From the IMG/VR virus record IMGVR_UViG_3300015360_001272, positions 1-24,027 of that record: DNA of 24,027 bases. One strand, 5' to 3'. Positions 6,323 through 24,027 of the stretch are shown piece after piece; positions within the stretch are counted from its first letter, which is position 1, and each line of letters begins with the position of its first letter. Origin of the DNA: a virus. The translations under genes and the position numbers were made by a program. The notes below the pieces were generated by a model. It saw only the letters and a program-made list of their open reading frames with translations. It ran no database searches and was not told where the DNA came from.

Positions 6323-6369
6323 ACCAACCTCGCCCGCAGCACTAACCACAACCGAATACGAATAATCGT

Positions 6370-6391: not shown

Positions 6392-6408
6392 ATAGCATCA
6401 TCGCAGAC

Positions 6409-7398: not shown

Positions 7399-7419
7399 CA
7401 CGCTGACGATGATTGTTGC

Positions 7420-7462: not shown

Positions 7463-7505
7463 TACTCCAACGCAGCACAACCAAAGCAATAGAGGAGCTG
7501 ACATC

Positions 7506-7997: not shown

Positions 7998-8019
7998 ATC
8001 CTGCACCGAATGTGAGGAT

Positions 8020-8379
8020 ATGGCTGAACGCAAAGTCGGCCCGGTCCTCACAGGTCCGAACGGGGAGGAAGTGCCCTGCGTGCCCTGCTGTGAATCGCAG
8101 CACCCCGTCGGCACTGAATGCGACGAGTGCCCCTTCCAGCAGGCAGGCGAACCAGGCGACCGCCTACAGCGGTTGTTCTACGCCAGCGCAGAGGCACACC
8201 CCGTCGACCACAAGCACCCTGACGGGGCGAAAAAATGGCACCTCGATCGCAACGGAATCGAGATGGCATTCAACGTCTACGAAATTACTGAGAAGCCACG
8301 CGCGTACGAGCTCCTGCAGCACGCGTGCGCCGTGATGAACGGTGACGAAGAACCACCCGAAGCGCCGGAGGAAACGTGA
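8020..8379 (+). CDS. Cys-rich small protein between the two tail chaperones
   Basis: The 119-residue protein has CVPCC (20-24) and CDEC (34-37), which together could form a four-Cys zinc site, plus His-rich HPVDHKHPDG (60-69) and a helical C-terminus. Start ATG 8020 has GAGG at 8014-8017 only two bases before it, which is unusually close. The same frame is open upstream without any start codon to beyond 7957, so the protein may also be made as a +1-frameshift extension of the preceding chaperone. Its end overlaps the next gene in a GTGA. By position it is the likely T-part of a G/T tail-assembly pair. I do not recognise a known domain, so a role in tail assembly is inference from context. Confidence 0.68.
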   Translation: MAERKVGPVLTGPNGEEVPCVPCCESQHPVGTECDECPFQQAGEPGDRLQRLFYASAEAHPVDHKHPDGAKKWHLDRNGIEMAFNVYEITEKPRAYELLQHACAVMNGDEEPPEAPEET

Positions 8380-8744
8380 GCCTGAAAGACGCCCTGTCCG
8401 AACCTCCTGCGTCAGCGCCTCGGGTGGTCCCTATCGTGAACGGTTTTGCGGTGACGGTAAGCTGTCCGTCACCGCAGACGTTCATCCGCATCGAATCACT
8501 GCCGCCGCTCGAAGCGCTGGCAGTCGAAGCGCAGAGTATCCTGCGCGGATGGGATGGCCTGACGCCGTCCGTACTGCTCGACGATCTCGGGCTGCCGATG
8601 GGTCGCGCCGGTCGTGAGCAGCTACACCGCGACGTCGCCAAAACCGGCGGTGTCGTCCCGTACGTTATGCGCACGGGTGTCATGGTGTGGCTCTACGCTG
8701 ACGACGCCGCGTTCCGGTCGATCGTGTTAGCGGCGCTGCGCTAA
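8376..8744 (+). CDS. Tail assembly chaperone-like protein, second paralogue
   Basis: The 122-residue protein starts at GTG 8376, overlapping the previous stop, with GGAGGA at 8367-8372. It aligns with the protein at 7506 without gaps in two blocks. RVV-x4-GFxVT occurs at 16-27 here and 17-28 there. R-x-W-x-GLTP-x-V-x-L-x-x-L-x-L occurs at 57-73 here and 69-85 there. Both also share a GG-x2-PY segment before the last helix. It lacks the acidic C-terminal tail of the first copy. The pair looks like an old gene duplication with the Cys-rich gene between the copies. The role is probably another tail-assembly chaperone or a diverged partner for the long tape measure protein. Its last 18 bases overlap the end of the minus-strand gene tail to tail. 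Confidence 0.7.
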   Translation: MSLKDALSEPPASAPRVVPIVNGFAVTVSCPSPQTFIRIESLPPLEALAVEAQSILRGWDGLTPSVLLDDLGLPMGRAGREQLHRDVAKTGGVVPYVMRTGVMVWLYADDAAFRSIVLAALR

Positions 8745-9146
8745 AAACGAGTCAAATAGCTTCATCCAGTCTTCCTGTGTTCGCATCTGCCACAAGCAAG
8801 ACTGAACACAGGCAAGGTCGCTAACCTTGCCGGCATCCTTCAGCGCCTCTCGAAAACTCCCCTTGGCGTACGCGGCAAGGGCCTGCGGCTGTTCACACTC
8901 GTACTCGTACTTGTGTCGACGGCACTCGAGGGCGTCCCTTAGCCGCGCCACTGCGATGTCGCATAGCTGCTCGGCGCTCCAGCAGGCGCGGTTCGCTGCT
9001 CGGGCGCGGGCTTCATCCGCCCGCTTGCCGTCAGCCCACATGCTTCGGCCGGTGAATATGACGGCAGCCACGATGAACGCAGCCGTGACGGCCTTAAACA
9101 GCTTCGCGTCGCGCAGCACCTGCTGACTCGGAGTTAGATCGGTCAT
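8727..9146 (-). CDS. Small Cys-rich single-pass membrane protein, moron-type gene
   Basis: The only credible minus-strand gene in the window encodes 139 residues. A hydrophobic helix lies at about 18-33 (KAVTAAFIVAAVIFTG) after a short polar N-terminus. A roughly 100-residue domain with six cysteines (55, 62, 75, 84, 113, 117) follows, mostly helical and charged, including CRRHKYEYEC. An N-in, C-out anchor with disulfide-bonded periplasmic helices is plausible. I chose ATG 9146 because a TTGACA/TATTAT promoter lies just before it. GTG 9203, with GAGGG in front, would add 19 residues but would start upstream of that promoter. Opposite orientation, own promoter and position inside a tail operon are typical of morons (superinfection exclusion or host modification), but no family is recognised. 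Confidence 0.65.
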   Translation of the reverse strand: MTDLTPSQQVLRDAKLFKAVTAAFIVAAVIFTGRSMWADGKRADEARARAANRACWSAEQLCDIAVARLRDALECRRHKYEYECEQPQALAAYAKGSFREALKDAGKVSDLACVQSCLWQMRTQEDWMKLFDSFLAQRR

Positions 9147-9158
9147 CGGGTCAACCCC

Positions 9159-9185
9159 ATAATACAACGGTTGTCGTTTTGTCAA
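9159..9185 (-). promoter_or_regulatory. Sigma70-like promoter of the minus-strand membrane gene
   Basis: On the minus strand TTGACA (plus 9180-9185) is a perfect -35 box and TATTAT (plus 9159-9164) a 5-of-6 -10 box. The 15-nt spacer is slightly short. The expected transcription start near 9152 leaves only about 6 nt before ATG 9146, so the mRNA would be almost leaderless. The region is AT-rich against a GC-rich background, which supports a real signal. Confidence 0.55.
9164..9174. promoter_or_regulatory. Operator-like palindrome in the promoter spacer
   Basis: ACAAC-G-GTTGT is a perfect inverted repeat of 5-bp arms around one base. It sits between the -35 and -10 boxes of the minus-strand promoter and touches the -10. 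A bound repressor dimer here would block transcription. Short arms make chance occurrence possible. Confidence 0.35.
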
Positions 9186-9237
9186 GACACCGCCCCGCTT
9201 CACCGCTGTTCCCTCTGCTGTCTACCGAGCGAGTGCC

Positions 9238-12200
9238 ATGGCTGAACGTACTGTCGAAATTCGTCTGCGCGTTGCTGCGCCTGGAGCTGACGCGGTGTTT
9301 GCCGCGCTCTCGAAGGGTGGCAGCGACGTCGCAAATAATCTGGGAGTCTCTATCGCGAGCGACGGCCTCACCGCCAGCTCCGGCAAAGCTACCCAAGCGC
9401 TCACGCTGAAGGCCAAAACGATGGAGGGGCTGCGCAACGTCGCGCGGCAGTACGCGGCGCAGCTCGGTCCGGTGGGTTCGTCTGTCGCCGCTCTCGGCCC
9501 AGCGGCGCTTGTGGCAGTCGCCGGGATTGGGGCGCTCGGGAAAATCCTTTCCGACTCAATCCGATTCGGTCGCGAGTTTGAAAAGGGCCTCGCTAACCTT
9601 TCAGCGATCACTGGCGCGACGGGCAAGGATCTCAACTATCTGCGTGATCAGGCCATTGAGCTTGGCCGGAGCACCACCAGTGCCGCGATTCAGACCGTCG
9701 AGGCGTTCAAGCTCATCGCGAGCGCTAAGCCTGAGCTGCTAGAGGACGCGAAAGCGCTAGCGGCGGTGACGCGCGAAGCCATTGCGCTCGCCGAGGCGAC
9801 GGGGACGGCAGTTCCCGAGTCGTCACGTCTGCTCGTCACCGCACTGAATCAGTTTGGAGCTGGCGCCGGGGAGGCGTCGCGCTTTATCAACGTGCTCGCG
9901 GCCGGCGCCAAGTTTGGTGCAGCCGAGATTCCTGACTTGGCGGATGCGATCGTCAAGGCCGGTACCGAGGCGCGAGGCGCAGGTCTGTCGTTCGAGCAAT
10001 TTAACGCCGTCCTGCAGAAGCTCGCGGCGTTCGGCACGCCGGCCGAGAAAATCGGCACGTCGCTGCGTAACATCTTCCTGGAATTGCAGAAGGGTAGCGA
10101 CGCCACCAATCCCAAGATCGTTGGGATTACTAAGGCGCTTGAAAACCTTGCGGCGCAGCAGCTCACCGTTACAGAGCTGACGGACCGCTTCGAAACCGAA
10201 AACGTCACGGTCGCCCAGCAGCTTCTGCAGGTGTCCTCGTCGTTAGAAACAATGACGGGGCAGATCACTGCGACGTCAGAGGCGTACGACCAGCAACGAA
10301 TCAACACGGACACGCTTGAGGGGTCTATCGCGAAGCTGCGCAACGCTTACGAGGAGCTGCTGGCCGCGATCTCGCAGGACCAGAGCCTCCTGCGCGACCT
10401 TGTTGTGATCTTCGGTGAGCTACTCCACGTAACAGCACTCGTCGCTAACTCCACGGACGGTTGGAAAATCGTCATTGGGGCAGCCTCGGCCGCCGCTGGG
10501 TTACTTACGGGCAATGTAGCCGTGGCCGCAGGGGCATACGTTACCCTTTCGTCCGCCCTGGACGCGAATCGTGCACACCAAGAGAGCGTAGCCCAAACGC
10601 AGCGGGACGCCGCCGAAGCCGCTCGACTGGCCGCAGTGGCGCAGCGGGACGCCGCCGAAGCCGCTCGACGGGCCGCAGAGTTCGTCAGCGGCCTCGACGC
10701 GGAAGTGCGGGGGCTCACCACCGGACTGGGCGGCATGAGTCCGCTCATCGCCGACACCGCGAGTTTTCTTGCGTCGCTCGGTGGCGCCGCAGCAGGGGCC
10801 GCCAAGGATCTCGAAGCGCTCAAGGCTGCACAAGAGGCCGCGATCAAGGAAAACGACGACTCGAGCAAGCGCCTGCAGGTCGAGGTCAAAGTACGCGAGG
10901 AGTCGAAGCGACTCGGCCGCGATCAAGTTGAAACGAACCTGGCGGTCGCGGATGCGCTGCGGCAGTCCAACGGAGTAGAGCATGACGCGTCAGTCTCGCG
11001 CGGTGAATTGGAACGTAAGAACCAGGCGCTGATCACCTCCGGTAAGGATCACGCCAAGTCGATCAAAGCCGAAGCCGGAGAGTTTCAGCGGCTCCGCGAG
11101 GCGATGGCCGAGAAGATCGCCACCACGGAAGCGGAGGCGAACGCCATCGCGCAGTCTATCGCGCGAGGCGACTCCTACGTTCAGACGTTGGCGAACATTG
11201 CCGCAGCACAGCTGCACGCGAAGGGCGCCACCGACAAAGAGACGGAATCCTACCGGCAGCAAGCGCTGCATGCCGAGGAAGCCGCCGAGAAGCTGAGCAA
11301 GCTGAAAGAGTTCCAGTCGTTCACGACGAACGGTAACGAACGGCTGGCTCAGCTGGACCTAGAGCGCAAGGCCATTGACGAAGTCGGTGCCGCGCGCGGA
11401 CGCTCAATCGACATCGAGCGTGCACAGGCTGTCGCTGCGGCTGAGTTCACGGCTCGCACTGCGCAGCAAAACGATGAGAAAATTGAAGGCGCGAGGCGAC
11501 TTGCGGCCGAACTATTTGACCAGCAGCACGCCAACGACGCCCTGCGGGATTCGCAGGCAGCCCTCCAGGGCACCCGCGACTCTATCGGGGACATCCAAGC
11601 CCGCATCAACGTCCTGAACCAGCAAGCGTCCGGCACGCTCACGTTAGCGCAAGCCACCGAGGAGCTGGCCGTCATCGAAGCGCGGCGGCGCGCGATCAAT
11701 CAGGGTGGCACCCTCAGTCCCGAAGCGGAAGCGGGCGTCAGGCAGCTGGTGCAGCTGCAAGAGGAGTACGCGCACGCCGAGCGCGCCGCTGCGCGGTTCG
11801 CTCGCACGACGCAGGACTCGCTCGACGACGCGTTTGATAGCGTCGTGGATCTTGGACGGGGTGCGTTCGAGGAGCTGTTCGCAACAGGTAGGATCGACGC
11901 CGGACGATTTGCCGACGGCCTGAAAAGTATCATTTTCAAGGCGCTCGCTGACATCGCCACGCAGAAGATCATCCTACCGATCGTCGCCAATATCGTTGGC
12001 GCCGTCGGCGGCGCCGTCGGCGGTGGTGGTGGCGGTGGTGGTGGCGGTGGTGGTGGCGGTGGTGCTGGGGGAATACTCCAGCAGGGCCAGCAGCTGTTTT
12101 CGCTCGGCAAGCAGCTTTACTCGGGGTTCGGGGCACTTACGAACGCCCTTGGCCTCACGACATCCGCTGTGGCGAATGGGGCCGCAGCGACCACGCTATT

Positions 12201-15200
12201 GAGTGCCGATATCTCGTCGCTTGCGGCTTACAGTGTCGTCGGACCTTCGATCGCAGGTACCGGCGCGCTCGGTGCCGTCGGTGGCGGTGCCATCGCCCCC
12301 GGCCTGGTCGTCGATGTCGCTACGGGCCTGACCGTCGATGTCGCTACGGGCACCATCGTAGGCGGCGCAGCGCCCGGCCTAGGTAGCGCCGGGGCAGTGG
12401 GTGGTGGTGGTGCGCTCGCTGGAGCCGGCGCCTCACTCGCCGCAGCCGGCGTCGCGGCGGCGGTCGCCGCGGCCGTCATCGGTATTGTCGGCACGCTGAG
12501 CATCGCCGCAGGGGCGAGCCAGGCGCGCACGTCATTCTTCGATCGTGAGGACAGTTTCAAGTACGTCTCGAAGGCGGTGACGGACGATACGACCCTGAAT
12601 GCCCTCTCTGAGCTGACGGTCCGACTCATGTCCTTCGGTGCGATCAGCGGCAAGGAAGCCGGCAAGGCCATGTTTGACCTGTTCAATGGCGAGGTGAGCT
12701 TCGGCAATATCGCCGGCACCACGGCGCTGATGCTCGCCAACCCTCTCGCCCCGCTGCTCTACCTCGCATCGCAACCGCCCACGAAGGGCACCGCGATCCG
12801 AAAGAACTTCGAGGAGTTCATTGAAAATGACGAGATCGGTTCGGGTTTCTTCGGACGGGACTCGGGTACGTTCATCCGCGGCATTGGTCAAGACGGTAAA
12901 GTCGGCGATCGCGCTGACCGCCTGACGCCGGAGCAGCTCACGTCCGTAGGCGGCGGCACGCGCGGCATCATAGCGGAAACCGGCCTGGAGTTCGTGCCGG
13001 CCATGCGCGAATTCATCAAGCTCCAAGAGGAAGCGATCGGCCTGAATAAGGAACAGATCGACGGTGCCTTTGGGCTCGGTGTCGCCTACCGCGCGATCAT
13101 CGGCAAGAAGGGCGGCAACGAGGAGCAGCGCTCCCTCGCGATCATCGCCGACCTGCTCGGTTCCATCAACGTCGAAGGCGCCGATGCGGCCGAGTCGATG
13201 GAGATTTTCGGCAACGCGATTCTTGCGCTCGGCCGACCCCGGCAGACGCTCGAAACCATGCTGCGATTTTTCGCGAGCGAGGACAACGACGTTGCGCTGC
13301 AAGATCAGGAGCGCGCCGTGCAGGGCGTTGCGGCAGCCTTCTATCAGGATTTACCGCAGGGTGTGGACGCGGCAGCCATCGCGATTGCGATGTTCCACAA
13401 GAACGCGACGTTTACGTTCGAGGAGCTTGACAAGCAGATCCGCGGCGCAGTCGCGGAAGCCGAGGCGTTCGGTCCTGCCCTGCAGGAAGCATTCTCGTCC
13501 GGCCTGTTCGACGGGGATCTCAACGTCGAGGCGTTCACCAAGAGCCTCACCACGTCAGTCGACAATGCGTTTCGTGAGCAGATCGCGAAGCTGACGTTTG
13601 ACTCGGTGATCGACGGGGCATTCAAGGGCGACATCCTTGGGCCAGTGCTCGACACGATCACGGACACCGAAGAAAAGGTAAAGTCCGGTGACCTGACGCG
13701 GGCCGAAGCGAGCGAGATCCAGAAACAAGCGTTGCGTGATGCTCGCACCGCGATGGAAGGGCTCAGGCCCCTGATGGAGGAGCTGATCAACGCCGGGCGT
13801 GACCTGGCGTCAGTGTTTACCGAGGCTGACAATTCGGTCCTGGGGCTCGCCACTGCGATCGTTCAGCTGCAAGCGGCACAGGAGCAATTCAATAACGCAC
13901 TGGACGCCCGGATTTTTGCGCTGCGCAATGATGGCGGTGCATCAGCGGAGGTCATTCGCCGCGACTTGCCGGACATCGAGCGAGAGTTTCGCCTGACGCA
14001 GCTCCAAAACTTCGGGTCGCAATCCGAGATCGTGGCGGCGGCAAACTCCGGCGTCATCACTGCGTCGGAACTGGAGCAGTACCTGAGGCGCGTTCCGGGT
14101 GGCCCGGACGAAGCGACGACCGAGGATAAGCTCGGAGCGCTGACGAGGCTGCAGGCACTGGCCGAGCGTGACCTTGAGATCAGGGTCGCGGCTATCAACG
14201 CTGAAACCGCGGTGATCGTAAAGCAGCACCAGGATAATATCACCCGGCTGACGAAGGAGCGCGAGCAGATCCAGCGCAACGCTCAAGCGGCGATTGACGC
14301 GAAGCAGACTGAGCTGGAAGCGGTACAGGAAGCACTCGCGACCGCACAGGCGTGGAAAGCGACGCTTGATCAGGTCACCGACACGCTGCTGCAAATTCAA
14401 GTCGGGAACACATCGCCCGACTCGGGGATCGTCCGACTGCAGACACTGCAATCGGAATTCTTCGCGCAGCAGGCACGGTTTAACGACACGAGCCTGACCG
14501 ACGAGCAACGCCAGGAAGCCGCCGGCAAGCTCTCCACGCTCGCTCCGCAGATTCTGGGGCAGGCACAAGCCGCCGGTATCGCGCAGTCGAGCGAGGCGTT
14601 TCGCGTGATCTTCGAGCAGGTCGCTCTGGCTCTCGACAAGATCAAGAACGAAGCGGGCGTCAAGGCTGTCGACGTCGATGCCTTGATCGTCAAGCAGACG
14701 AAACTGCAAGAGGACATCAAGGCGCTGCAGAAGGGAACCAACGCAAAGCTCGACGCGATCGAAGCACAGCTTCGGACTGAGCAGGACGCGATCACGGCTG
14801 CGCAGGATGCGGCCAAGGAAAAAATTCAAGAGGTCAGCAATAACACTGCTGGCGTTCTCGAATGGATTCAGGGGCAAGGTAACGCGATCTTCGAGCAGAA
14901 GCAGGACGAGCTGAAAGCAAAGCTCGCGGCGCTCGGCGTTACCGATATCTCGATCGAGTCGATTCAGGCTAGCTCGCTGACTGAGCTACAGGCGATCCGC
15001 GCGCTGATCGAAGGACAGGGCAGCACTGTCGTCAACGGCCCGGTCAAGTCTGGTGACGGTGGCGACGGCGGCACTGGCGGTGGTGGCAGCACTGGTGGCG
15101 GCACCGGTGGTCCTGGCGGCGGGCAAAGCTCGGGTCGTTACGGGCTGACGGCCGTCGGGCAAGAGAAGCTGAAAGCGGCGATCGAACCGCTAGGTGTCGG

Positions 15201-15837
15201 CGGACTCACGTACGCGCGGCTAGGTGGTATCCTTGGGTTCGACGCCAAGACGCTTGCGAAGGTCAAGGCTGAAGGTGGGCCGATCGCTGACTTGATCGCC
15301 ACGCTGCAGGAGCTGGCACCGGGGGCAACCTCCCTCAGTGCACTGCAGACACTGGTCAAGGAAGTCCGCCACAAGATCGAGGATCGCGACTACGTGAGCC
15401 CCGTTCTCGGGTTCGCTAACGGCGGGCTGGTGCGCGGTTCGACGGTGGCGCGGGTCGGTGAAAACGGCCCCGAGCTGATTCTACCGCTCAGTCAGGCTTT
15501 TCGCACGAGCGAGGTGCAACGCTACTTCGCGCGCATGGTTGCTGACATGCCGCGACTGCTGACTGATTTCCGCCCGCGGCAGCCGTTCACGCCCGCGGCA
15601 CAGGGTCCACGCGAGGCACCGCCTCGGGTCAACCTGACACAAGCACCGCAGCAGCCCCGTGACGTTGCCATCAAGGTCGAAATCAACATCAGCGGCCTGG
15701 ATACGACGAACCCCAAGGAAGTCGCCGCAGCGATCAAGCCTGTGATCGTTGACGCGATGTCGGAAGCCTTGAAGCGAAGCAACAAGCTCCGCGCCGAAGT
15801 CGCCATCATTGGCGGGTCCGGTCCGACGTATCGTTAA
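9238..15837 (+). CDS. Tail tape measure protein
   Basis: The 2199-residue protein starts at ATG 9238, with only a weak GAG-type ribosome site. It fixes tail length and is ejected with the DNA. At a usual 0.15 nm per residue the tail would be about 330 nm. Order: short N-terminal domain; hydrophobic ALGPAALVAVAGIGALGKIL (85-104); PhageMin_Tail-type helical domain (about 108-300, with FGREFEKGLANLSAITGATG); coiled coils to about 900; a 15-Gly run (928-942). A hydrophobic, Ala/Gly-rich, membrane-active part follows (about 945-1100). More helical repeats and coiled coil (about 1620-1880), a Gly/Thr-rich linker (about 1939-1967), and the hallmark FANGGLVRGSTVARVGENGP (2059-2078) come after. It is the largest gene here and follows the chaperones that coat it. 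Confidence 0.95.
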   Translation: MAERTVEIRLRVAAPGADAVFAALSKGGSDVANNLGVSIASDGLTASSGKATQALTLKAKTMEGLRNVARQYAAQLGPVGSSVAALGPAALVAVAGIGALGKILSDSIRFGREFEKGLANLSAITGATGKDLNYLRDQAIELGRSTTSAAIQTVEAFKLIASAKPELLEDAKALAAVTREAIALAEATGTAVPESSRLLVTALNQFGAGAGEASRFINVLAAGAKFGAAEIPDLADAIVKAGTEARGAGLSFEQFNAVLQKLAAFGTPAEKIGTSLRNIFLELQKGSDATNPKIVGITKALENLAAQQLTVTELTDRFETENVTVAQQLLQVSSSLETMTGQITATSEAYDQQRINTDTLEGSIAKLRNAYEELLAAISQDQSLLRDLVVIFGELLHVTALVANSTDGWKIVIGAASAAAGLLTGNVAVAAGAYVTLSSALDANRAHQESVAQTQRDAAEAARLAAVAQRDAAEAARRAAEFVSGLDAEVRGLTTGLGGMSPLIADTASFLASLGGAAAGAAKDLEALKAAQEAAIKENDDSSKRLQVEVKVREESKRLGRDQVETNLAVADALRQSNGVEHDASVSRGELERKNQALITSGKDHAKSIKAEAGEFQRLREAMAEKIATTEAEANAIAQSIARGDSYVQTLANIAAAQLHAKGATDKETESYRQQALHAEEAAEKLSKLKEFQSFTTNGNERLAQLDLERKAIDEVGAARGRSIDIERAQAVAAAEFTARTAQQNDEKIEGARRLAAELFDQQHANDALRDSQAALQGTRDSIGDIQARINVLNQQASGTLTLAQATEELAVIEARRRAINQGGTLSPEAEAGVRQLVQLQEEYAHAERAAARFARTTQDSLDDAFDSVVDLGRGAFEELFATGRIDAGRFADGLKSIIFKALADIATQKIILPIVANIVGAVGGAVGGGGGGGGGGGGGGGAGGILQQGQQLFSLGKQLYSGFGALTNALGLTTSAVANGAAATTLLSADISSLAAYSVVGPSIAGTGALGAVGGGAIAPGLVVDVATGLTVDVATGTIVGGAAPGLGSAGAVGGGGALAGAGASLAAAGVAAAVAAAVIGIVGTLSIAAGASQARTSFFDREDSFKYVSKAVTDDTTLNALSELTVRLMSFGAISGKEAGKAMFDLFNGEVSFGNIAGTTALMLANPLAPLLYLASQPPTKGTAIRKNFEEFIENDEIGSGFFGRDSGTFIRGIGQDGKVGDRADRLTPEQLTSVGGGTRGIIAETGLEFVPAMREFIKLQEEAIGLNKEQIDGAFGLGVAYRAIIGKKGGNEEQRSLAIIADLLGSINVEGADAAESMEIFGNAILALGRPRQTLETMLRFFASEDNDVALQDQERAVQGVAAAFYQDLPQGVDAAAIAIAMFHKNATFTFEELDKQIRGAVAEAEAFGPALQEAFSSGLFDGDLNVEAFTKSLTTSVDNAFREQIAKLTFDSVIDGAFKGDILGPVLDTITDTEEKVKSGDLTRAEASEIQKQALRDARTAMEGLRPLMEELINAGRDLASVFTEADNSVLGLATAIVQLQAAQEQFNNALDARIFALRNDGGASAEVIRRDLPDIEREFRLTQLQNFGSQSEIVAAANSGVITASELEQYLRRVPGGPDEATTEDKLGALTRLQALAERDLEIRVAAINAETAVIVKQHQDNITRLTKEREQIQRNAQAAIDAKQTELEAVQEALATAQAWKATLDQVTDTLLQIQVGNTSPDSGIVRLQTLQSEFFAQQARFNDTSLTDEQRQEAAGKLSTLAPQILGQAQAAGIAQSSEAFRVIFEQVALALDKIKNEAGVKAVDVDALIVKQTKLQEDIKALQKGTNAKLDAIEAQLRTEQDAITAAQDAAKEKIQEVSNNTAGVLEWIQGQGNAIFEQKQDELKAKLAALGVTDISIESIQASSLTELQAIRALIEGQGSTVVNGPVKSGDGGDGGTGGGGSTGGGTGGPGGGQSSGRYGLTAVGQEKLKAAIEPLGVGGLTYARLGGILGFDAKTLAKVKAEGGPIADLIATLQELAPGATSLSALQTLVKEVRHKIEDRDYVSPVLGFANGGLVRGSTVARVGENGPELILPLSQAFRTSEVQRYFARMVADMPRLLTDFRPRQPFTPAAQGPREAPPRVNLTQAPQQPRDVAIKVEINISGLDTTNPKEVAAAIKPVIVDAMSEALKRSNKLRAEVAIIGGSGPTYR
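10599..10678 (+). repeat. 42-nt tandem duplication inside the tape measure gene
   Basis: Bases 10599-10627 recur perfectly at 10641-10669, and the next nine bases match with one change, giving a 42-nt period. The protein reads QRDAAEAARLAAVA then QRDAAEAARRAAE. The near-identity of DNA indicates a recent in-frame duplication of 14 residues in the coiled-coil region. Confidence 0.85.
12019..12063 (+). repeat. GGC-GGT-GGT-GGT 12-nt repeat encoding 15 glycines
   Basis: The 12-nt unit GGCGGTGGTGGT occurs three times, followed by GGCGGTGGT. All units are in frame, so copy number changes would alter the Gly linker by four residues without frameshift. It separates a helical part from the hydrophobic part of the tape measure protein. 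Confidence 0.9.
12310..12351 (+). repeat. Short direct repeat of 18 nt in the tape measure gene
   Basis: The 18-mer starting GTCGATGTCGC occurs at 12310-12327 and 12334-12351, a 24-nt period. It encodes VDVATGLT followed by VDVATGTI in the hydrophobic Ala/Gly-rich region. It is probably a small recent slippage duplication. Confidence 0.75.
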
Positions 15838-15860
15838 CCCCAACACACTAAGGAGTCCAT

Positions 15861-16436
15861 GTGATGCGAACGATTGTCGGCGCGTGCTGCGCCCTGTCCG
15901 TTATGGTGTCGGTTGCGTTTGCGCAGCCGGCACCCGTTACGTTCCGGGCGCGGTTCGCGCCGTTCGCATCCAACGCGACCGCGGCTCGCATGCTGCGCGT
16001 CAGCTCCCCTGACGTCGTCGTCCTGCCGGACGCGTTCGTGGCGCAACAGGAGTGCGACCCGCCGCAAGCGGGCGTACTCTGCGCCTACTTCATCACGCCA
16101 GCCTCGCCCGGTGAGGAGCTGCGGTTTCGGCTCTGTCAATCGAACGGGGCCGGGGAAGCCTGCACGGGATGCGGCGGGGCGACTCAGTGCGACACGCCTG
16201 ACCGCTTCGCCACCATCCCGACGGCCACCCCGACGGCCACTGTTACACCTACCGCCACGGCCACCGCTTCTCCGACTCTGACTCCTACGCGGTCACCTAC
16301 TCCTGTGCTCACGGCTACGCGGACCGCGACGCGTACGCCGACGCCATCACCCACACGCACCCCGACCCCGACGGCGACCCCAACGCCGGTGCGGCCCCCC
16401 GCGCCGGTATTCGAGTCGGTCGAGGTGGTGCCGTGA
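15861..16436 (+). CDS. Exported protein with Thr/Pro-rich C-terminal tail
   Basis: The protein has 191 residues. AAGGAG at 15850-15855 serves GTG 15861 or ATG 15864; both are in frame and give the same protein but one residue. A Sec signal peptide is clear: MRTIVGACCALSVMVSVAFA with likely cleavage before QPAP. The mature domain (to about 118) has six cysteines (65, 74, 92, 101, 104, 110, including CTGCGG), suggesting disulfides outside the cytosol. Residues 120-178 are TP/TA repeats such as TATPTATVTPTATATASPT, a stiff, extended stalk of a kind common in secreted proteins of Deltaproteobacteria-like genomes. It is translationally coupled to a second exported protein. Function unknown: it may be displayed on the infected cell or be an external tail component, though virion proteins normally lack signal peptides. 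Confidence 0.75.
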   Translation: MMRTIVGACCALSVMVSVAFAQPAPVTFRARFAPFASNATAARMLRVSSPDVVVLPDAFVAQQECDPPQAGVLCAYFITPASPGEELRFRLCQSNGAGEACTGCGGATQCDTPDRFATIPTATPTATVTPTATATASPTLTPTRSPTPVLTATRTATRTPTPSPTRTPTPTATPTPVRPPAPVFESVEVVP

Positions 16437-16885
16437 GGATCACGTTAGCGACCGTGGCGCTGCTCGGGCTGCTTGCGCAGCCCGTGCACGCCGCGGTGCT
16501 CACCTTCCAGTGGACGCAGCCGCAAGGCTGCGCCTCACTGGCGGGGTGGGAAATCCTCGCGGCGCCGATCACCGAGCGCAAACCGAACCCCGCTGTCAAA
16601 CGAGCTGAACCGGCCGGCGTCATCCCGAATGACGCGGCTGTCCGTTGCGAGCCGCACGCCACTGCAAACGTGGCGGTCGATGGGCTTGGGCGTCGTCGCC
16701 TCTGGCTGCGCGCGCTCGGCACGCGACCAAACCTCGACAGTCCGACGTCGGAACCGCTCGACGTCAATCTGCCGCTCGTCATCGAGTGGCCGGCGAAGTG
16801 CACGCGGCTGATCGTCGCGCGTCACGATGACGCCGACAACGAGCCCCGCATCCAATGGCAGCCGAACCGCTGCGACGAGCGCTAA
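16433..16885 (+). CDS. Second exported protein, coupled to the Thr/Pro-rich one
   Basis: The 150-residue protein starts at GTG 16433 in a GTGA overlap, with GAGG at 16421-16424. The N-terminus is a good Sec signal peptide (MRITLATVALLGLLAQPVHA, cleavage before AVLTF). The mature part of about 130 residues begins LTFQWTQPQGCASLAGWEIL, which recalls the first strands of a fibronectin III-like beta sandwich, and ends PNRCDER. It has four cysteines, probably two disulfides. No membrane anchor or lipobox is visible. It probably works with the upstream exported protein in the periplasm or at the surface. I do not recognise a specific family. Confidence 0.72.
   Translation: MRITLATVALLGLLAQPVHAAVLTFQWTQPQGCASLAGWEILAAPITERKPNPAVKRAEPAGVIPNDAAVRCEPHATANVAVDGLGRRRLWLRALGTRPNLDSPTSEPLDVNLPLVIEWPAKCTRLIVARHDDADNEPRIQWQPNRCDER
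16465..16484 (+). repeat. Perfect 8-bp hairpin within the signal peptide codons
   Basis: CGGGCTGC (16465-16472) and GCAGCCCG (16477-16484) form a perfect stem with a TTGC loop, 32 nt into the coding region of the second exported protein. It has no T-run, so it is not a terminator. It might slow early translation or be chance in GC-rich coding DNA. Confidence 0.4.
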
Positions 16886-16894
16886 GGAGTTCAT

Positions 16895-18166
16895 GTGTCT
16901 GGTCCGTATAGTGACGTGGTCTGGCAATCCCTAAACGGGTACCTGCGTGTCTCGCCTAACGCTGCGGTGGTGGTGAAGAATGCAGGCACGAGCACGGTCG
17001 CCGCATCGACGACCGCCGACGCGAATGGCAACTGGACCGTCACGCTGGCGGTCAGCGGGTTTTACGACATCTTCATCACCGCGCTGACGGGTCAGACGGG
17101 GTCGCTCTTGAACCGCTGGCTGCAAATCGACGCGGGCGGCACGGCGCTCGCAGTCATTGACGGCGGGTCGCACGTGGCACGCGCGTCGGCCGATCAGTTC
17201 TTTACGTCGAGTCCGTTCCCTGCCGCGACGTCCGCGGCGGCTGAGCGCCCGTTGCCGTTCGCCGGCACGGTCAACGCGCTGAGTGCGAGCGTGACGCCTG
17301 CGCTCACCACCGGCGAGCAGATCGTGCTCGACCTGATGAAGAACGGGGCATCGACGGGCCTGACGGCAACGCTCTCGTCGTCGACGCAACAATCTAACGT
17401 CGGCGGCGGCGTCGCGTTCGCGCTCGGGGATCGCTACGCCATCCGCGCCCAACGCAGCGGCCCGCTCGTCGGTGTCGTCAGTGGCTCGTCGACCGGGTCC
17501 AATGCGTCGGCCAACGGCGTCAATATCAGCGTCAGTGGCCTGACGTCACCCGGTCCAGCCGCGGGTGAACGCATCGCCATCGTGGCAATCGCCGCGTTCG
17601 ACGCAAGCACGGCGCTCGGCGTTCTGGAACCCACGGCGGTGACACACGCCAGCTTCGCCGCGATGACCAAGCTCGCGGCCACGCAGCTGATCGTCGGCGG
17701 CAAGACGCTGCGGTTGTCGCTCTGGTACATTCTCAATCCACCCGTCACGCTGACCACCTTCACCATGGGGAGCGCGTTCACCACGCACCCCCGCGAGTAT
17801 GCGACCGCGGCGTGCATTCTGTTGCAGGGCGCCGCGTCGATCACGTCGTCCGGTTCCAGTACGGCAGCCGGCGGCAGCGTCGGGGTGACACTGACCCCGA
17901 CCGTCGCTAACGCCATCATGGTCGATGCGGTCGTTGGCAACGGCAATATCAACCTCGTCGGCGCCACGAGTCAGACTGAAATCGCCGAGGTCGGCACCAC
18001 GAACCACCTCGCGATCGGGGTGCGGCTCACGCCGAACACGTCGCCGCTGCTGTCCACGTGGACGCAAGCGGCGGGCACGCAAATGGTGATGGTCAGCGCG
18101 ATGGTCGCGCCCACGACGGGCTACGTGCCCGGCACCGACGTCGCAACGTCGCTCAAGTTTTCGTAA
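16895..18166 (+). CDS. Predicted tail/virion protein, beta-rich
   Basis: The protein has 423 residues. AAGGAG at 16884-16889 sets the start at GTG 16895. An ATG two bases upstream is out of frame and stops quickly. The sequence is rich in Thr, Ser, Ala and Gly and in short beta strands. The N-terminal 80 residues have an Ig-like pattern (ADANGNWTVTLAVSGFYDIF). A second unit (about 95-215) has PLPFAGTVNALSASVTPALT and ALGDRYAIRAQRSG, reminiscent of jelly-roll domains. The third (about 220-410) has VTHASFAAMTKLAATQLIVG, LSLWYILNPP and a final AGTQMVMVSAMVAP. No signal peptide is present. Position after the tape measure gene in the tail-tip cluster suggests an adhesion or tip protein; the specific role is unknown. 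Confidence 0.72.
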   Translation: MSGPYSDVVWQSLNGYLRVSPNAAVVVKNAGTSTVAASTTADANGNWTVTLAVSGFYDIFITALTGQTGSLLNRWLQIDAGGTALAVIDGGSHVARASADQFFTSSPFPAATSAAAERPLPFAGTVNALSASVTPALTTGEQIVLDLMKNGASTGLTATLSSSTQQSNVGGGVAFALGDRYAIRAQRSGPLVGVVSGSSTGSNASANGVNISVSGLTSPGPAAGERIAIVAIAAFDASTALGVLEPTAVTHASFAAMTKLAATQLIVGGKTLRLSLWYILNPPVTLTTFTMGSAFTTHPREYATAACILLQGAASITSSGSSTAAGGSVGVTLTPTVANAIMVDAVVGNGNINLVGATSQTEIAEVGTTNHLAIGVRLTPNTSPLLSTWTQAAGTQMVMVSAMVAPTTGYVPGTDVATSLKFS

Positions 18167-18175
18167 GGAGTTTCG

Positions 18176-19357
18176 ATGGCATACACGGGGGGCATCAAAG
18201 TCGTATACGCCAGCGGCTCGCCGCTGTTCGGCACGTACGGCAGCACGCCGCGCTATCTCGCGGCGGGCACCGTCATCAACGGGTCCGACGGTCCGTTCGC
18301 GTCGATCGACGTCAAGCACGGGATCAAGCCGGACGATAACATCTCCGGGGCCTACGCGATGGTAGGGAACGCTGGGTATCCTTACGGTGTCGTGGGCATT
18401 GATTCGCAGTCCGATGACACCATGAACACGCTGACGATCTACTGTAACGACGCGAGCAACGAGTGCGTGATCAACGGGTCGCTTCGCGCGTTCGCTGGCG
18501 CGCGCGTGGTCGTGAAAAATAAGCTCTGGACGGGCGACAGCGTCGGCAGTCGTGGTACGTCGTCGCGGCTCCGCGTCGGTGGGCTCCGCGCGAGCGGTCC
18601 CGGTGCCTGCTTCAGCACGCAATTCGTCGATAACGTCACGTGTACCGGCGCCGTGTGGGTCGACTTCCACGCGTTCTCCGCGATCGGTTCCTATTGGGGC
18701 GTGTTCGATCTTTCGAGCACGATCATCTCGCAACGCGCGGGGCACCTCGACCTGCGCGGCTTCATCTATCAGCACTCCTCGGGCGGCAGCGTCGGCAACT
18801 ACGTCGTCTGGATCGAGGATGACAACGTGCTTCTTGGTGAGGGCCTGGGCGTGCTGACCGGGCTCGCGGCGGACTCGCTGCTCACACCCGCCAACGGCTA
18901 CACCAACGGCGGCGACTTCGTCGGGTGGTTGATCGACCTGCAGAGCTCTAGTCACCAAGGCATCGGGCTATTCGGTAAGGGTCGCTCACGACTCGGCGGC
19001 AGCACCGGCGCGGTCAAGATCACGGGGCCGAACATGGCGACTGTGCGCGCCGTCAGCGTCGGCCAGCTCTCGTATGTGGCGGTGCAGCTCGACACGAACA
19101 TGCCCGATTGCTGGCTGAACGCGGCCGGGCTGTCCGCGATCGACTTCGGCGTGCAGCCGTCAACCACGTACCCGCCAGCATGGAAGTTCACGGCCGATTA
19201 TAACAGTGCGATCGGCTGGCTGCCATCCGGCGCGACCGCATCGCAGTGGCTCGCGGGCCTAGAGAACGGCACGCAAGTCGCGGTCCGCGCCAACAGTCGC
19301 GGCGAGCTGTGTGCGCCGTCGGACCCGCTCATCGCCGGCACGATCACCGTCCGCTAG
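18176..19357 (+). CDS. Predicted tail-tip or adhesin protein
   Basis: The 393-residue protein starts at ATG 18176 after AAGGAG at 18165-18170. The sequence is made of many short strands with Gly, Ser, Asn and Asp turns. The centre (about 85-240) has a strand-turn rhythm that could be a parallel beta-helix like tail spikes (LTIYCNDASNECVINGSLRA, HLDLRGFIYQHSSGGSVGNY). There is no obvious catalytic triad, signal peptide or membrane segment. The C-terminus (LCAPSDPLIAGTITVR) is compact. It is encoded in line with the preceding structural gene using the same strong ribosome site, so it is probably made in similar amount. Receptor binding is a reasonable guess but unproven. Confidence 0.68.
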   Translation: MAYTGGIKVVYASGSPLFGTYGSTPRYLAAGTVINGSDGPFASIDVKHGIKPDDNISGAYAMVGNAGYPYGVVGIDSQSDDTMNTLTIYCNDASNECVINGSLRAFAGARVVVKNKLWTGDSVGSRGTSSRLRVGGLRASGPGACFSTQFVDNVTCTGAVWVDFHAFSAIGSYWGVFDLSSTIISQRAGHLDLRGFIYQHSSGGSVGNYVVWIEDDNVLLGEGLGVLTGLAADSLLTPANGYTNGGDFVGWLIDLQSSSHQGIGLFGKGRSRLGGSTGAVKITGPNMATVRAVSVGQLSYVAVQLDTNMPDCWLNAAGLSAIDFGVQPSTTYPPAWKFTADYNSAIGWLPSGATASQWLAGLENGTQVAVRANSRGELCAPSDPLIAGTITVR

Positions 19358-19425
19358 CGCGGCGCTTCCTTCTCACTGCTGCGGGCATCGCTCGCATAGG
19401 CCAAATCATGCCCATCGTACTTGAC

Positions 19426-19430
19426 GGAGG
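19426..19430 (+). promoter_or_regulatory. Ribosome-binding site deciding the start at 19435
   Basis: GGAGG lies 4 nt before GTG 19435. The alternative ATG at 19408, 27 nt upstream in the same frame, has only a weak AGG before it. The 77 bases between the previous stop and 19435 hold no other feature that I can see. Confidence 0.55.
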
Positions 19431-19434
19431 ATTC

Positions 19435-20196
19435 GTGGCAACGTCGAAGCAATACAGCCCGCTGGCAAAGTCATTCACCGTGTTTGCGGCGACGAACATG
19501 CACGCGAGCTATCCCGCGACGCGTATCGCGGTGCCGAACCCGCGGCGGTTCGCCCGGTCATCCAGCACCACCGCCCCGGTGTTCACGCTGAACCTCGGCG
19601 CCCCGACCACGATTCAAGCGTTCAGCATCGAAAACGTGAATTTCGGCACCCTCACCATCGAAGGTAGCAACTCCAGCAGCAGCGGATTCACGCAGCTTCA
19701 AACCTTCAGCGTGAGCACGGCCGAGCGCTGGACGACGCGCCGGAAGCTGATTTGCGTGCCGTCGTCGACCTGGACGTTTCAGTATGTGCGACTGACGCCC
19801 GCCAGCCTCGATGCAGGGGCGACCTTTTTCAAGGTCGGCATGGTTGGGGCCTGGCCGCTGCTTAAGACGCTGAGTCAGAACGTCGCAACGGGGTACAGCA
19901 AGCAACTGCCGTCCAAGGCCGAGGAGCTGCAGATCGGTGGCTCTGAGGAGGTCGGGATGGCGACGCCGACCCGGACGGTGATCACCGCGACGGTGCGACC
20001 CGAAACGACAGACACCGCGACGCTGAATCAATACGCGGAGCTGGCGAACATCCCAAAAAATCGCGTGTTCCTTTGGTACGACAACGAGGGTGACTTGACG
20101 CAGGTGCATCACATGCAGCGAACGGGTGACTTCGAGGTGGTGCGCGAAGGTGTCGAGTCGCCCATTTCGGGCATTCAATTTCGCGAGGTGCTGTAA
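19435..20196 (+). CDS. Tail protein with discoidin (F5/8 type C)-like N-terminal domain
   Basis: The protein has 253 residues from GTG 19435, or 262 from ATG 19408. Residues 10-130 read like a galactose-binding jelly roll: an ATRIAVPNPRRFARSS lead-in, VFTLNLGAPTTIQAFSIENV, TLTIEGSNSSSSGFTQLQTF, then FQYVRLTPAS. This is the 'lDLG...i.-i.v.g.n...-v.i..S.dg..w' pattern of discoidin-type domains. The C-terminal 120 residues (ITATVRPETTDTATLNQYAE, RVFLWYDNEGDLTQVHHMQR) look like a tail-tip scaffold similar to distal tail proteins. It directly precedes the large hub gene by 3 nt, the usual place for a distal tail or Dit-like adaptor. A carbohydrate-binding adaptor at the tail tip is the most likely role, by pattern and context only. 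Confidence 0.65.
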   Translation: MATSKQYSPLAKSFTVFAATNMHASYPATRIAVPNPRRFARSSSTTAPVFTLNLGAPTTIQAFSIENVNFGTLTIEGSNSSSSGFTQLQTFSVSTAERWTTRRKLICVPSSTWTFQYVRLTPASLDAGATFFKVGMVGAWPLLKTLSQNVATGYSKQLPSKAEELQIGGSEEVGMATPTRTVITATVRPETTDTATLNQYAELANIPKNRVFLWYDNEGDLTQVHHMQRTGDFEVVREGVESPISGIQFREVL

Positions 20197-20199
20197 GCC

Positions 20200-23100
20200 A
20201 TGGCGCAAGTGATCAATCTGCTGGAGCTGCAACTCTTGTCCGGTACCGTCTACTGGTCGACGGCGGAAACCCTGCCGGACGGGTCCGCCGTGCTCGATGG
20301 TTCGAGCAACGTCTACGAAGCTCGGCTCAAGCCGTACCCCAAGATTCAACGCAAGCTGAGCGACGCTTTTTTCGGCATCCCCGAGGACGGCACCCTGACG
20401 TGCGTCGTTGGCGCGCTCGATCAGTCCGACGTCACCGTCACCGGCGAATGGGATCAAGCAGCGGGCACCAACGCGATCGCGAGCCTGTTTCGCTCGACCG
20501 ATGCGCGTGGCCGTCGAGCGATCCTGCGTCGCATCCTCGTCAGCGAGGACGGCACCACGACGCTGTCAGACCGCTTCTATGGCATGGTCGAAGATCGTCA
20601 ATTTCAGGAGGACGGGTCAGTTGAGCTGAGCATCACTGACCAGTCCGCCGACGTGCTGGACACGCCGTACCCGCGGCTCGTCATTGGAACCGACCTGTTC
20701 CCGAAGGCCACCGACGAGCGCTTCGCAGTCGGCTCGACCATCCCCATTCACCTCGGGGCGCATCGCGAGCACAGCCCTTGCCGTTACGTCGAGGGCACCG
20801 ACCGCCTCGCTTGGGCTGCGGCCGAACCGCGTCTGTACTCGCAGCACCGCTACCTCGTCGGCTGCGATCTCGCGGCCGCCAACGGTTATGCAAACGTACA
20901 GCCGCATGTGAACGCGCTGTATCTTGGCGCCGACACCGGAGCGTCGCTGATCAATCCGGGTGAGTACGCGATCCGCTACGATCGCCGGCTGACGATGTCG
21001 ACGCCGTCAATTTCGCTGCTTGCGGGCGGGTCGCTGACGGCCGCAGCGTACACGTACGAGGTGACCGCATGGAACGGCCTGCGCGAGTCCTCGCAGCAGA
21101 CCGTCTCACGCACGCTCACCGCTGGTGAGGTCTCTGCCAACACGCGCACGCATCGTCTTTCGTGGTCGCGGGTCGACGGCGCGATTGGCTACTTCATTCG
21201 TCGGAACACGTTCCTGCTCGCCGTCATCGGCGGCATTAACGGCAGCACTGCATCGTTCGATGACACCGGCACACTGACGCCGATCAGCTACGACAGCGCA
21301 AGCGTAACCAATCTCACCGGGCAAAACTTCTTTGAGGCGGTGTTCGAGGGCGCCGTCATATCAAAGACTGACGAGCTGGTGCCGGTGCTCGCCGATGTCG
21401 AGTGCACCGAAATGGGCTGGCAACCCGAGGTGTCTGGCCTGTGGCACTTCCGGGGCAACGACGGCGCCGCGATTCACGACAGCAAGCCGGAGCGCAATCA
21501 CTACCTGCGCCGCAGCACGACGGTCGGCTTCTGGGCGTTCAAGAACAACGGCAACAGTCAGCTGGCGTCGAACGTCAACCCCCTGACCATCACCGGCGCG
21601 ACGCCCGGCGACTACGTCGCGAACGGCAAGAACGGCAAGCCATGCCTACTCGGTGACGGCATCATCACGGGTACGCTCACCGATGCGGCGCAGAACGGCA
21701 ACCTTGATCGCGGCACGTCCACCACGCTGATCGCGGCGATGGTTCGCCCTGACCGCGGCTCCTCGTCTCGGGCGGATATGACCCTGGTCGAGAAGGGTGG
21801 GCCAGCATTCGGCGTGTCCGGCTACAACTTGGTCGTTGACAAGGGTTGCGCGCAGGGGTCCATCGGCGACGGCGTCACTGAGGTGACCGTACGCGGCACC
21901 ACGCCGCTCGATGGCGCGTGGCACTTGGTCGAGCTGTGCATTGATCGGACGTCACAGACGCTCTACCTGCGTGTCGATGGTGCGGTGGATTCCCCGTCAC
22001 CGAGCATTGCGGCGGTCGGCTCGATCAGCAATTCGGCTGACTTCACGGTCCTCGGCGGGTTCGGACACTTCTACGGCGCGATCGACTGGCTGCTCGTTGA
22101 CACGGCCCTCGCCCCGTTGACGAACCTGCAAAATGGCAAGGCGAACAGCTCGCTGAGTGCCTACAATATCGAGACGTCGACGAATCAGCTGCCGCTCTAC
22201 ATCGAGGACGGCTCGCAATCGAACCTCGATTCCTTCGGCACCATCACGGTTGAGTTCTGGGGCATGCACACCGTCAGCCCCGGCGGCACGCTGAAAACCG
22301 CGGTGACGAAGTATGATGCCGCCGTCGGCGGCTACAAGCTCGGCCTGATCAACAGCTCGGGCGACAAGTTTCAGGTGGTGATGAATAACATCGGGACCGC
22401 GACGACGGTCACCGGGAGCACCACCGTGACACAGAACGTCTGGCATTACTTCGCGGTGGTGCAGAGCGGCACCGGCGTTACGCTATACCAGGACGGCGAG
22501 GTTGTCGGCAGCGCGACCGGTTCGGCGTCGGGAGGCGACAATACGCAACCGTTTATCATCGGAGCCGACACTACGGCTGGATCGAATCGGTTCCCCGGTG
22601 CGATCGACGAGGTGCGCGTCACGCAGCGGGATCGCACGCAGGGTGAAATACGCGAGGCGTACTACCTCGGCATGCGCAACCCGGTACGGCAACTCCGCAC
22701 CCTACTGGTGAGCAGTGCACACGGCCCCGGTGGAGACATCAACGTGACGACATGGGATCAAGCCGAGGCGGACGTGGCGGCAGCAGGCAGCAGCAAGCTC
22801 GCCACCGACATCGCGCTCGTCGAGCCGCAGCGGCTGCGCGACTACGTCACCGAGCTGGCAAAGGTGCGAGGGCTGCGGTTGGCCTTCTCCAGCGCCGGCA
22901 CGATTGATTGCGTGGCCGACACCCAGAAAAGCGAGCTGACGTCGTTCGGCTGGCAGGATGGTGGCATCGCGGCGGGCTCGATGAAGTCGCGCCCGCAGTG
23001 GGGCACGCGATCCATTCGCGAGGCACCCAAGACGCTGCGCACGCGGTACCGACGGCGCCGCGGTCGTGACGGGTCACTGAATCGGTTCCTGCTCAAATCG

Positions 23101-24027
23101 TCAGAGCGTTCGGTGCTGGCGGTCGGGATGTCCGACGCCATCAGCATCGACCTGGCGGCCGTTCGCGAAACGGAAGCGGGCGACCGCGTCGCGTATTACT
23201 ATCAGCAGCGTGCCATCCTCGCCGATGTCACGTGCGAGTTTGGCACCGGCGGCGATGGCCTAAGCCTCGCTCTCGGCAGCGTCGTGCGTCTCTACGACCC
23301 GTCGAGCGGCATCACGTCGACCGGCGACTTGCACGAAGTCGTCGCGCTCTCGGAGCAAGGCTCCGAAGTCGAAGTCAGTACCCGCAGCTGGTCGTCGGCT
23401 ATTTACTCGTACTCAGCGGGCACGCTGCCGTATGGCATCGGCGCGGAGAGCGAGGCCGACTACTCTGCGACCCTGCCGCCGTCCATCCTCGGCCTTGGGG
23501 TGACGTTCGCAGCCACCGTCGCGGCGCATGGGCAAACCATCTGGACCCCCACGGCGAGCTGGACAGCGCCGTCATCGACAAACGTCGCCTTGATCGTCGT
23601 CGAGTTTCGCCCGTCAGCTGAAACGCCTTGGCGATCGCTCGGCATTTTTCGGAAAGGTACGACGTCGGCCAAGGGTGACGCCAACTTCAACGACTCGACG
23701 GCCTACGAGTTCCGCATTTACGCTCGCAGTAAGTTCGGCCTCGACGGGCCAGCGACGCAAGTAGCCGTGTCGACCGCGCTGCCGGGGGCACCAACCAACC
23801 CCGACACGGCCGGCTCGCCTGGGTCGTGGGCGATCACTCTGTCGGCAACGGGCTCAGGGCATCGCTCGCGCGGGTTTAAGTGGGCCAAGCACCCCGCCAG
23901 TAATATTGATTACTACGAGTGGGAAACCTACGCCGCGTCCTCGGGTGGCTCGGTCATCCTCACCGGACAGACTCGCAGTCACCGCATCGTAATTCAGGAG
24001 GCGGGACTCGCGCGTGGCACCGCTCGC
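20200..24027 (+). CDS. Large tail hub/tip protein with LamG and FN3-like domains, 3' end outside
   Basis: The frame stays open from ATG 20200 to the last base, 1276 codons, so the gene continues beyond the window. GAGG at 20186-20189 may serve the start. Order: an N-terminal hub-like domain (1-260, MAQVINLLELQLLSGTVYWS); an FN3-like unit (about 268-370, AAAYTYEVTAWNGLRESS); LamG/concanavalin-like unit 1 (about 506-638, GAWHLVELCIDRTSQTLYLR); LamG unit 2 (about 680-826, NVWHYFAVVQSGTGVTLYQD). A second hub-like alpha/beta domain (about 828-1080, with VEPQRLRDYVTELAKVRGLR) and an FN3-like unit (about 1088-1191, STAYEFRIYARSKFG) follow. LamG and FN3 domains bind glycans or act as spacers. It is probably the tail-tip hub that opens the tube and contacts the receptor. 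Confidence 0.82.
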   Translation, partial: MAQVINLLELQLLSGTVYWSTAETLPDGSAVLDGSSNVYEARLKPYPKIQRKLSDAFFGIPEDGTLTCVVGALDQSDVTVTGEWDQAAGTNAIASLFRSTDARGRRAILRRILVSEDGTTTLSDRFYGMVEDRQFQEDGSVELSITDQSADVLDTPYPRLVIGTDLFPKATDERFAVGSTIPIHLGAHREHSPCRYVEGTDRLAWAAAEPRLYSQHRYLVGCDLAAANGYANVQPHVNALYLGADTGASLINPGEYAIRYDRRLTMSTPSISLLAGGSLTAAAYTYEVTAWNGLRESSQQTVSRTLTAGEVSANTRTHRLSWSRVDGAIGYFIRRNTFLLAVIGGINGSTASFDDTGTLTPISYDSASVTNLTGQNFFEAVFEGAVISKTDELVPVLADVECTEMGWQPEVSGLWHFRGNDGAAIHDSKPERNHYLRRSTTVGFWAFKNNGNSQLASNVNPLTITGATPGDYVANGKNGKPCLLGDGIITGTLTDAAQNGNLDRGTSTTLIAAMVRPDRGSSSRADMTLVEKGGPAFGVSGYNLVVDKGCAQGSIGDGVTEVTVRGTTPLDGAWHLVELCIDRTSQTLYLRVDGAVDSPSPSIAAVGSISNSADFTVLGGFGHFYGAIDWLLVDTALAPLTNLQNGKANSSLSAYNIETSTNQLPLYIEDGSQSNLDSFGTITVEFWGMHTVSPGGTLKTAVTKYDAAVGGYKLGLINSSGDKFQVVMNNIGTATTVTGSTTVTQNVWHYFAVVQSGTGVTLYQDGEVVGSATGSASGGDNTQPFIIGADTTAGSNRFPGAIDEVRVTQRDRTQGEIREAYYLGMRNPVRQLRTLLVSSAHGPGGDINVTTWDQAEADVAAAGSSKLATDIALVEPQRLRDYVTELAKVRGLRLAFSSAGTIDCVADTQKSELTSFGWQDGGIAAGSMKSRPQWGTRSIREAPKTLRTRYRRRRGRDGSLNRFLLKSSERSVLAVGMSDAISIDLAAVRETEAGDRVAYYYQQRAILADVTCEFGTGGDGLSLALGSVVRLYDPSSGITSTGDLHEVVALSEQGSEVEVSTRSWSSAIYSYSAGTLPYGIGAESEADYSATLPPSILGLGVTFAATVAAHGQTIWTPTASWTAPSSTNVALIVVEFRPSAETPWRSLGIFRKGTTSAKGDANFNDSTAYEFRIYARSKFGLDGPATQVAVSTALPGAPTNPDTAGSPGSWAITLSATGSGHRSRGFKWAKHPASNIDYYEWETYAASSGGSVILTGQTRSHRIVIQEAGLARGTAR

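Follow-up and report, generated by a model that had tools for sequence, protein, structure and literature searches.

A coupled pair of predicted exported proteins encoded beside the tail-tip genes of an uncultivated bacterial virus: a possible shield of the host surface

Exported proteins encoded beside phage tail genes

Llp is encoded beside the receptor-binding gene of T5 and blocks FhuA (PMC9586334); its expression is early according to a 1994 paper cited in that article. The cor cassette is an exported multi-gene unit located just downstream of the tail-fibre genes in T1, HK022, N15, ES18 and phi80, which also encodes two more proteins predicted to lie in the membrane or outer membrane and has been tied to superinfection exclusion (PMC13164509). 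For Nixviridae prophages of Porphyromonas gingivalis, one report describes several signal-peptide genes with unassigned function, which are proposed to modify the host surface (PMC10367356).

Exported genes are also found between the K and I homologues of lambda-type tail clusters, for instance in phiKO2 (gp19), with a Fostie lipoprotein at the matching place and many relatives in IMG/VR. These morons are varied in sequence, are inserted in the tail-tip cluster and accompany a tape measure of the same family as the one described here. In the enteric tape-measure relatives these genes occur singly, some 1.8 kb beyond the tape measure, and many code for lipoproteins. In streptococci, the phage tail proteins PblA and PblB serve as surface adhesins; to our knowledge they lack a Sec signal peptide and arrive at the surface in a different way.

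Here we describe two genes, p1 and p2, which resemble the K-I slot morons in their insertion in a tail-tip cluster, and Cor and Llp in coding for small, predicted exported proteins beside tail-tip genes. They differ from the former, which are single, in being an overlapping, non-lipoprotein pair right after the tape measure. Cor and Llp are lipoproteins encoded after J or the receptor-binding gene, whereas p1 and p2 have no lipobox, match no family in Pfam, NCBIfam or PHROG apart from a low-complexity hit on the p1 stalk, lie directly after the tape measure and include a Thr/Pro stalk in p1. The Porphyromonas genes belong to other hosts and encode other proteins, and no coupled tail-tip pairs are described in the available part of that report (PMC10367356). 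The likeness to PblA and PblB is that of phage-encoded fibre-like proteins at the cell surface. A first-pass annotation of the locus knew of no described phage system of this shape, which is too strong: its novelty is reduced, but not removed, because exported K-I slot genes, Llp, the cor cassette (PMC13164509) and the Porphyromonas phage genes are known. We regard shielding of the infected cell from adsorption as the most likely function of p1 and p2, the main rivals being late decoration of the virion and a surface modification unrelated to superinfection.

The gene pair and its surroundings

The window, the whole stretch of DNA analysed, is a linear IMG/VR fragment of 24,027 bp from an uncultivated bacterial virus. 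Two sister contigs in IMG/VR are 99.8% identical to positions 1-12047. Both stop within the tape-measure gene, so that p1 and p2 are known from one contig and assembly only; the tape-measure ORF is unbroken across the point where the sisters stop. The 56-kb sister contig (G001; L005-L007) contributes 44 kb of the same phage upstream of the window. Only distant relatives of the terminase and the capsid were found in the phage records searched.

Table 1. Features of the gene pair, its neighbours and further predicted exported genes of the same phage. Positions refer to the window unless G001 is named.
Feature	Position	Strand	Characteristics
Tail tape-measure protein, 2199 aa	9238..15837	+	PF10145 6.5e-24; PHROG tape-measure families
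p1 start region	15849..15866	+	TAAGGAGTCCATGTG; AAGGAG ribosome site and GTG/ATG
p1	15864..16436 (15861 if GTG start)	+	signal peptide, Cys-containing head, Thr/Pro/Ala-rich stalk, short C-terminal tail
p1 signal peptide	15864..15923	+	MRTIVGACCALSVMVSVAFA; predicted cut after A20
p1 Thr/Pro stalk and C-terminal tail	16200..16433	+	composition
p2	16433..16885	+	Sec signal peptide, then domain of ~130 aa with 4 Cys
p2 signal peptide	16433..16492	+	MRITLATVALLGLLAQPVHA
Downstream neighbour, 423 aa	16895..18166	+	weakly CarboxypepD_reg-like, PF13620 2.5e-4, below gathering score
Downstream neighbour, 393 aa	18176..19357	+	no family found (Pfam, PHROG)
phrog_8610 protein, weakly discoidin-like	19408..20196	+	profile match; counterpart in G004
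Tail hub/tip candidate with laminin-G domain	20200..24027, past window end	+	PF13385 4.7e-25
Predicted exported protein, 518 aa	G001 31484-33040 (L006:11484-13040)		Thr/Pro linker, HEAHH motif
Predicted exported protein, 251 aa	G001 41754-42509		'YYRGDGGW' fibre-like motif; first of tandem
Predicted exported protein, 100 aa	G001 42524-42826		6 Cys past signal peptide; second of tandem

The first-pass annotation had described p1 and p2 as overlapping, coupled genes inside a tail-tip cluster, and this holds. Both ORFs are present where it had placed them and overlap by 4 nt (GTGA, the p1 stop and p2 start). They sit between the tape measure and the hub candidate, p1 starting 23-26 bp past the tape-measure stop (15837) at GTG15861 or ATG15864; the spacing from AAGGAG is better for ATG15864. 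The start context of p1 is nearly the same as that of the structural-type gene at 16895 (TAAGGAGTTCATGTG). No clear ribosome site was seen for p2 itself, which is probably translated by coupling to p1. The GC3 values of p1 and p2 (0.78 and 0.81) are like those of the neighbouring genes. A search of 15000-18400 detected nothing resembling a promoter, and the coding strand at p1/p2 showed no terminator-like site. The pair would thus be embedded in an operon and expressed along with the tail genes.

A PhageMin_Tail-type protein, the tape measure is at most 47% identical to those of enteric phages, a value reached with E. coli phage Fostie across 65% of the query. The 423-aa neighbour has no signal peptide and shares 44% identity across 52 aa with a protein encoded on L004. 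There, the CarboxypepD_reg match sits in a head-region gene and was therefore dismissed as a tail-tip parallel. The hub candidate had no relatives in phage records or in the IMG/VR search.

The architecture given for p1, a Cys-containing head and a long Thr/Pro stalk, was borne out: six cysteines lie past the signal peptide, and residues 113-190 contain 25 Thr and 18 Pro among 78. Tandem Repeats Finder detected no DNA tandem array in the stalk. Searches with p1 against Pfam, NCBIfam and PHROG gave no family, the sole match being a low-complexity one on the stalk (PHROG); no relatives of p1 were found in IMG/VR or phage records, and none of its head in the genome collection. A solved-structure search matched the head to FN3 at chance level (E 0.41), and a single-sequence structure model of the head was too poor for use. 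The Cys-containing domain ascribed to p2 is likewise present. Pfam, NCBIfam and PHROG gave no family for p2, IMG/VR no relatives and the phage records only noise (E=5). Its AlphaFold2 model from one sequence is weak (mean pLDDT 58, pTM 0.56) and mostly beta. Foldseek against PDB and BFVD returned nothing significant, a search of solved structures gave no relative, and the Cry23/Cry37 complex, best in VIA-align at Z 5.5, was discarded as lying within the range deemed common. Profile libraries and the weak single-sequence models revealed no fibre repeat, adsorption domain or virion-anchor domain in p1 or p2.

Such stalked, Cys-containing exported proteins look like ordinary surface proteins. The pair could therefore be an envelope-modifying moron, an exported adhesin or surface protein which alters attachment, protection or nutrition of the host and has no relation to superinfection. 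The exported genes of the Porphyromonas phages, with the host-surface change proposed for them (PMC10367356), would be a parallel. Against this speak the location within a morphogenesis cluster, where no promoter of its own was found, and the lack of an integrase or repressor among the 20 upstream proteins scanned against Pfam, a count from an incomplete genome that is no lifestyle test. We consider this explanation rather unlikely.

Several other features of the phage were observed. Two glycosyltransferase-like genes (4144-4956 and 4953-5996) overlap by 4 nt between head-completion and tail-tube genes; relatives of the second one occur in G001 (39509-40570) and in the related phage G004 described below (2578-3954). 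Window 1-758 belongs to a repetitive ORF rich in Ser and Ala (G001 42600-44711). An exact second copy of the first 91 bases of the window lies some 0.9 kb further upstream in G001 and may be the reason why the window contig starts here. A small protein (1589-2047) has a weak match to the Mu Com-like zinc ribbon, below gathering score. G001 also encodes a Type ISP restriction-modification enzyme-like protein (15099-17849, L005; PF18135 1.6e-115), an odd cargo for a phage.

Signal peptides, cysteines and further exported genes

Signal peptides were searched with a home-made scan for a basic n-region, a 9-residue hydrophobic core and small residues at -3/-1. Both proteins are flagged: p1 with a cut between MRTIVGACCALSVMVSVAFA and QPAP (site AFA), and p2 with a cut between MRITLATVALLGLLAQPVHA and AVLT (site VHA). 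The two Sec signal peptides with AxA sites that had been annotated are thus confirmed in their Sec-type form and in the site of p1, but the p2 site is not strictly AxA. In the rest of this phage's genes the scan flagged 0 of 489 starts, comprising 24 true starts and 465 in-frame internal ones. Shuffling of residues 2-45 attains the observed score in 6.6-7.9% of shuffles for p1 and 3% for p2, because hydrophobic composition alone supplies much of the score; the signal-peptide call therefore rests on the empirical control.

As a consequence, it has to be considered that p1 and p2 are cytosolic virion proteins with a signal-peptide-like hydrophobic start that is kept or trimmed by a phage protease. 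The shuffling result and the S78 prohead protease encoded by this phage are compatible with that. According to PMC10367356, capsid proteins can begin with a sequence that resembles a signal peptide and is probably removed by the prohead protease, and a signal-peptide call therefore does not prove export. We nevertheless judge this explanation improbable, given that p1 and p2 both show a clean basic-hydrophobic-small pattern, that the pattern recurs in many like genes and that exported genes are enriched in Cys in two phages.

Neither p1 nor p2 contains a credible lipobox; no lipobox cysteine is present at the cut sites, and both signal peptides are of type I. No membrane anchor or surface-anchoring motif was recognised in either protein. 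Overlapping genes and a proline-rich exported protein are also features of LysB/LysC-type spanins (PMC3556154), so that a divergent spanin or other lysis pair was considered. The lack of a lipobox led us to reject the spanin and lipoprotein readings; the expected uncut N-terminal anchor is not found, both signal peptides being type I, and no lysis gene was recognised in the window, which is part of an incomplete genome. A lysis pair is thus highly improbable. Export of p1 and p2 is well supported by their sequences, and with six cysteines in p1 and four in p2 past the signal peptides disulphides are possible. That the two form a coupled, disulphide-capable pair that is exported appears very probable, while their role is a matter of inference.

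Three further signal-peptide genes are present in G001, two of them in tandem (Table 1). The C-terminal part of the 251-aa protein matches the final part of gp31 from Streptomyces phage Wentworth (31%, E 3e-3). The 518-aa protein has a Cys-containing N-terminal part, a zinc-protease-like HEAHH motif in the C-terminal half and no convincing family match. Its gene is immediately preceded by ORFs which, from a reading of the translations only, resemble an IS607-type pair of serine recombinase and TnpB with a CPECG...C..C zinc finger (G001 ~29.6-31.2 kb, L006:9600-11200).

A related phage was found with an alignment of tape-measure domains (A1), which retrieved 80 IMG/VR loci; one of them, L071, derives from the 88-kb contig G004. 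Glycosyltransferase (33% identity), major tail protein (33%) and tape measure (50%) occur in the same order in G004 and this phage, and both share the phrog_8610 gene and part of the hub, the candidate here being 26% identical over 297 aa to the gene next after the G004 tape measure. Two overlapping genes with signal peptides (15377-16261 and 16243-20301) are found in the tail-tip cluster of G004 as well, located after the hub and directly followed by the phrog_8610 gene. The gene order is tape measure, hub, pair, phrog_8610 in G004 and tape measure, pair, two genes, phrog_8610, hub here. The second member of the G004 pair contains LamG. Altogether, G004 has about nine signal-peptide genes; many are Cys-rich, and a lectin domain or fibre repeats occur in some of them. 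They include a run at 67.5-74.0 kb, in which one gene contains the fibre sequence GGTGANNTATADRYLKGNGTNFLTSAGAA; an exported protein with a fibre repeat is encoded at 67968-68861. The exported proteins of G004 are not homologous to p1 and p2. Two of them (16243-20301 and 59245-61173; L100:3130-4722, L102:4353-5744) have a common domain, 29% identical over 540 aa, and contain numerous Cys as well as long Ser/Thr linkers. The phage records and genomes searched gave no relative, and a genome scan with the two-member alignment of this beta-helix-like domain gave no match.

In both phages the median Cys content is higher in exported than in other genes (3.08 vs 1.24%, p=0.006; 3.61 vs 1.57%, p=0.0014). 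Cys counts are even in 12 of the 14 exported genes, a figure without a parity baseline. The density of exported genes is 0.74 and 0.79 per 10 kb in the two phages, compared to 0.24 in 84 tape-measure relatives (Poisson p 0.026 and 0.006) and 0.03 in 76 fibre-motif loci, all figures coming from the home-made scan in a post hoc comparison, made after the genes had been noticed, with loci that are partial and mostly tail regions. The export assignment is strengthened by the three additional genes in G001, the approximately nine in G004 and the Cys enrichment in both. It seems that this phage and G004 produce a whole group of proteins for secretion or for the cell surface, probably at a late stage of infection.

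Possible functions of the exported proteins

Among 61 classifiable phage proteins that share one common fibre repeat, only one carries a signal peptide. The exception is a classical tail-fibre-like protein encoded directly after a J-like hub (L038:11951-12490), with a Sec signal peptide before the fibre sequence; none of the 60 others has one, which for fibres agrees with the earlier premise that such N-termini are not normal in virion proteins. A signal peptide on a fibre-like protein is thus a rarity in general, but a frequent feature in these phages.

One alternative is that p1 and p2 are exported virion parts: they would pass through Sec so that their disulphides form during periplasmic folding, and would be added to the virion, at lysis or later, to decorate the tail tip or the fibres. 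The position of p1 and p2 among tail genes, the Cys enrichment, the LamG domain and the fibre repeats in exported proteins (G001 41754-42509, G004 67968-68861 and the L038 protein) all fit this explanation. However, the virions of tailed phages are assembled in the cytosol, which counts against it, as do the 60 fibre proteins without signal peptide. In addition, the fibre repeat of G004 recurs in the P22-like MW202475 behind an ordinary, non-exported N-terminal domain, as if the signal peptide had replaced a virion anchor. We therefore think it unlikely that p1 and p2 are virion parts.

Shielding of the infected cell could proceed as follows. Through the host Sec pathway, p1 and p2 would reach the cell surface or the periplasm, and their cysteines may pair there as disulphides. 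There p1 would form a small head on a Thr/Pro stalk, and p2 a small beta-rich domain that probably acts with p1. Both would be part of the larger exported set of this phage and its relative, which partly has fibre or lectin domains. With the cell surface occupied or masked, sister phages, rival phages and freed progeny would adsorb poorly, in the manner of Cor and Llp but with a different protein. Known adsorption-blocking exported proteins encoded beside tail genes, Llp (PMC9586334) and the cor cassette (PMC13164509), argue for this reading. The searches found no homologue of p1 or p2, and there is therefore no comparative test of function. Two further points count against this reading: no lipobox, membrane anchor or surface-anchoring motif that would keep the proteins on the surface was recognised, and the exported proteins of G004 are not homologues of p1 and p2. 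Taken as a whole, from expression with the tail proteins through a disulphide-stabilised surface pair to protection against superinfection, the chain is proposed tentatively.

More speculatively, the phage lineage might make a whole set of Sec-exported, disulphide-rich, stalked, fibre- or lectin-like proteins, encoded as coupled pairs or runs in morphogenesis clusters. In that case, adsorption modules of the virion would have been redirected to the surface of the host, where they serve as shields or decoys, a signal peptide having taken the place of the virion anchor. The known exclusion proteins adjoining tail genes are, as far as we found, mostly small lipoproteins of enteric phages. In contrast, two related environmental phages appear to encode many exported Cys-rich proteins, partly with fibre or lectin domains and in coupled pairs. 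If the shielding reading is true, superinfection exclusion would here take a broader form, matched to the receptor.
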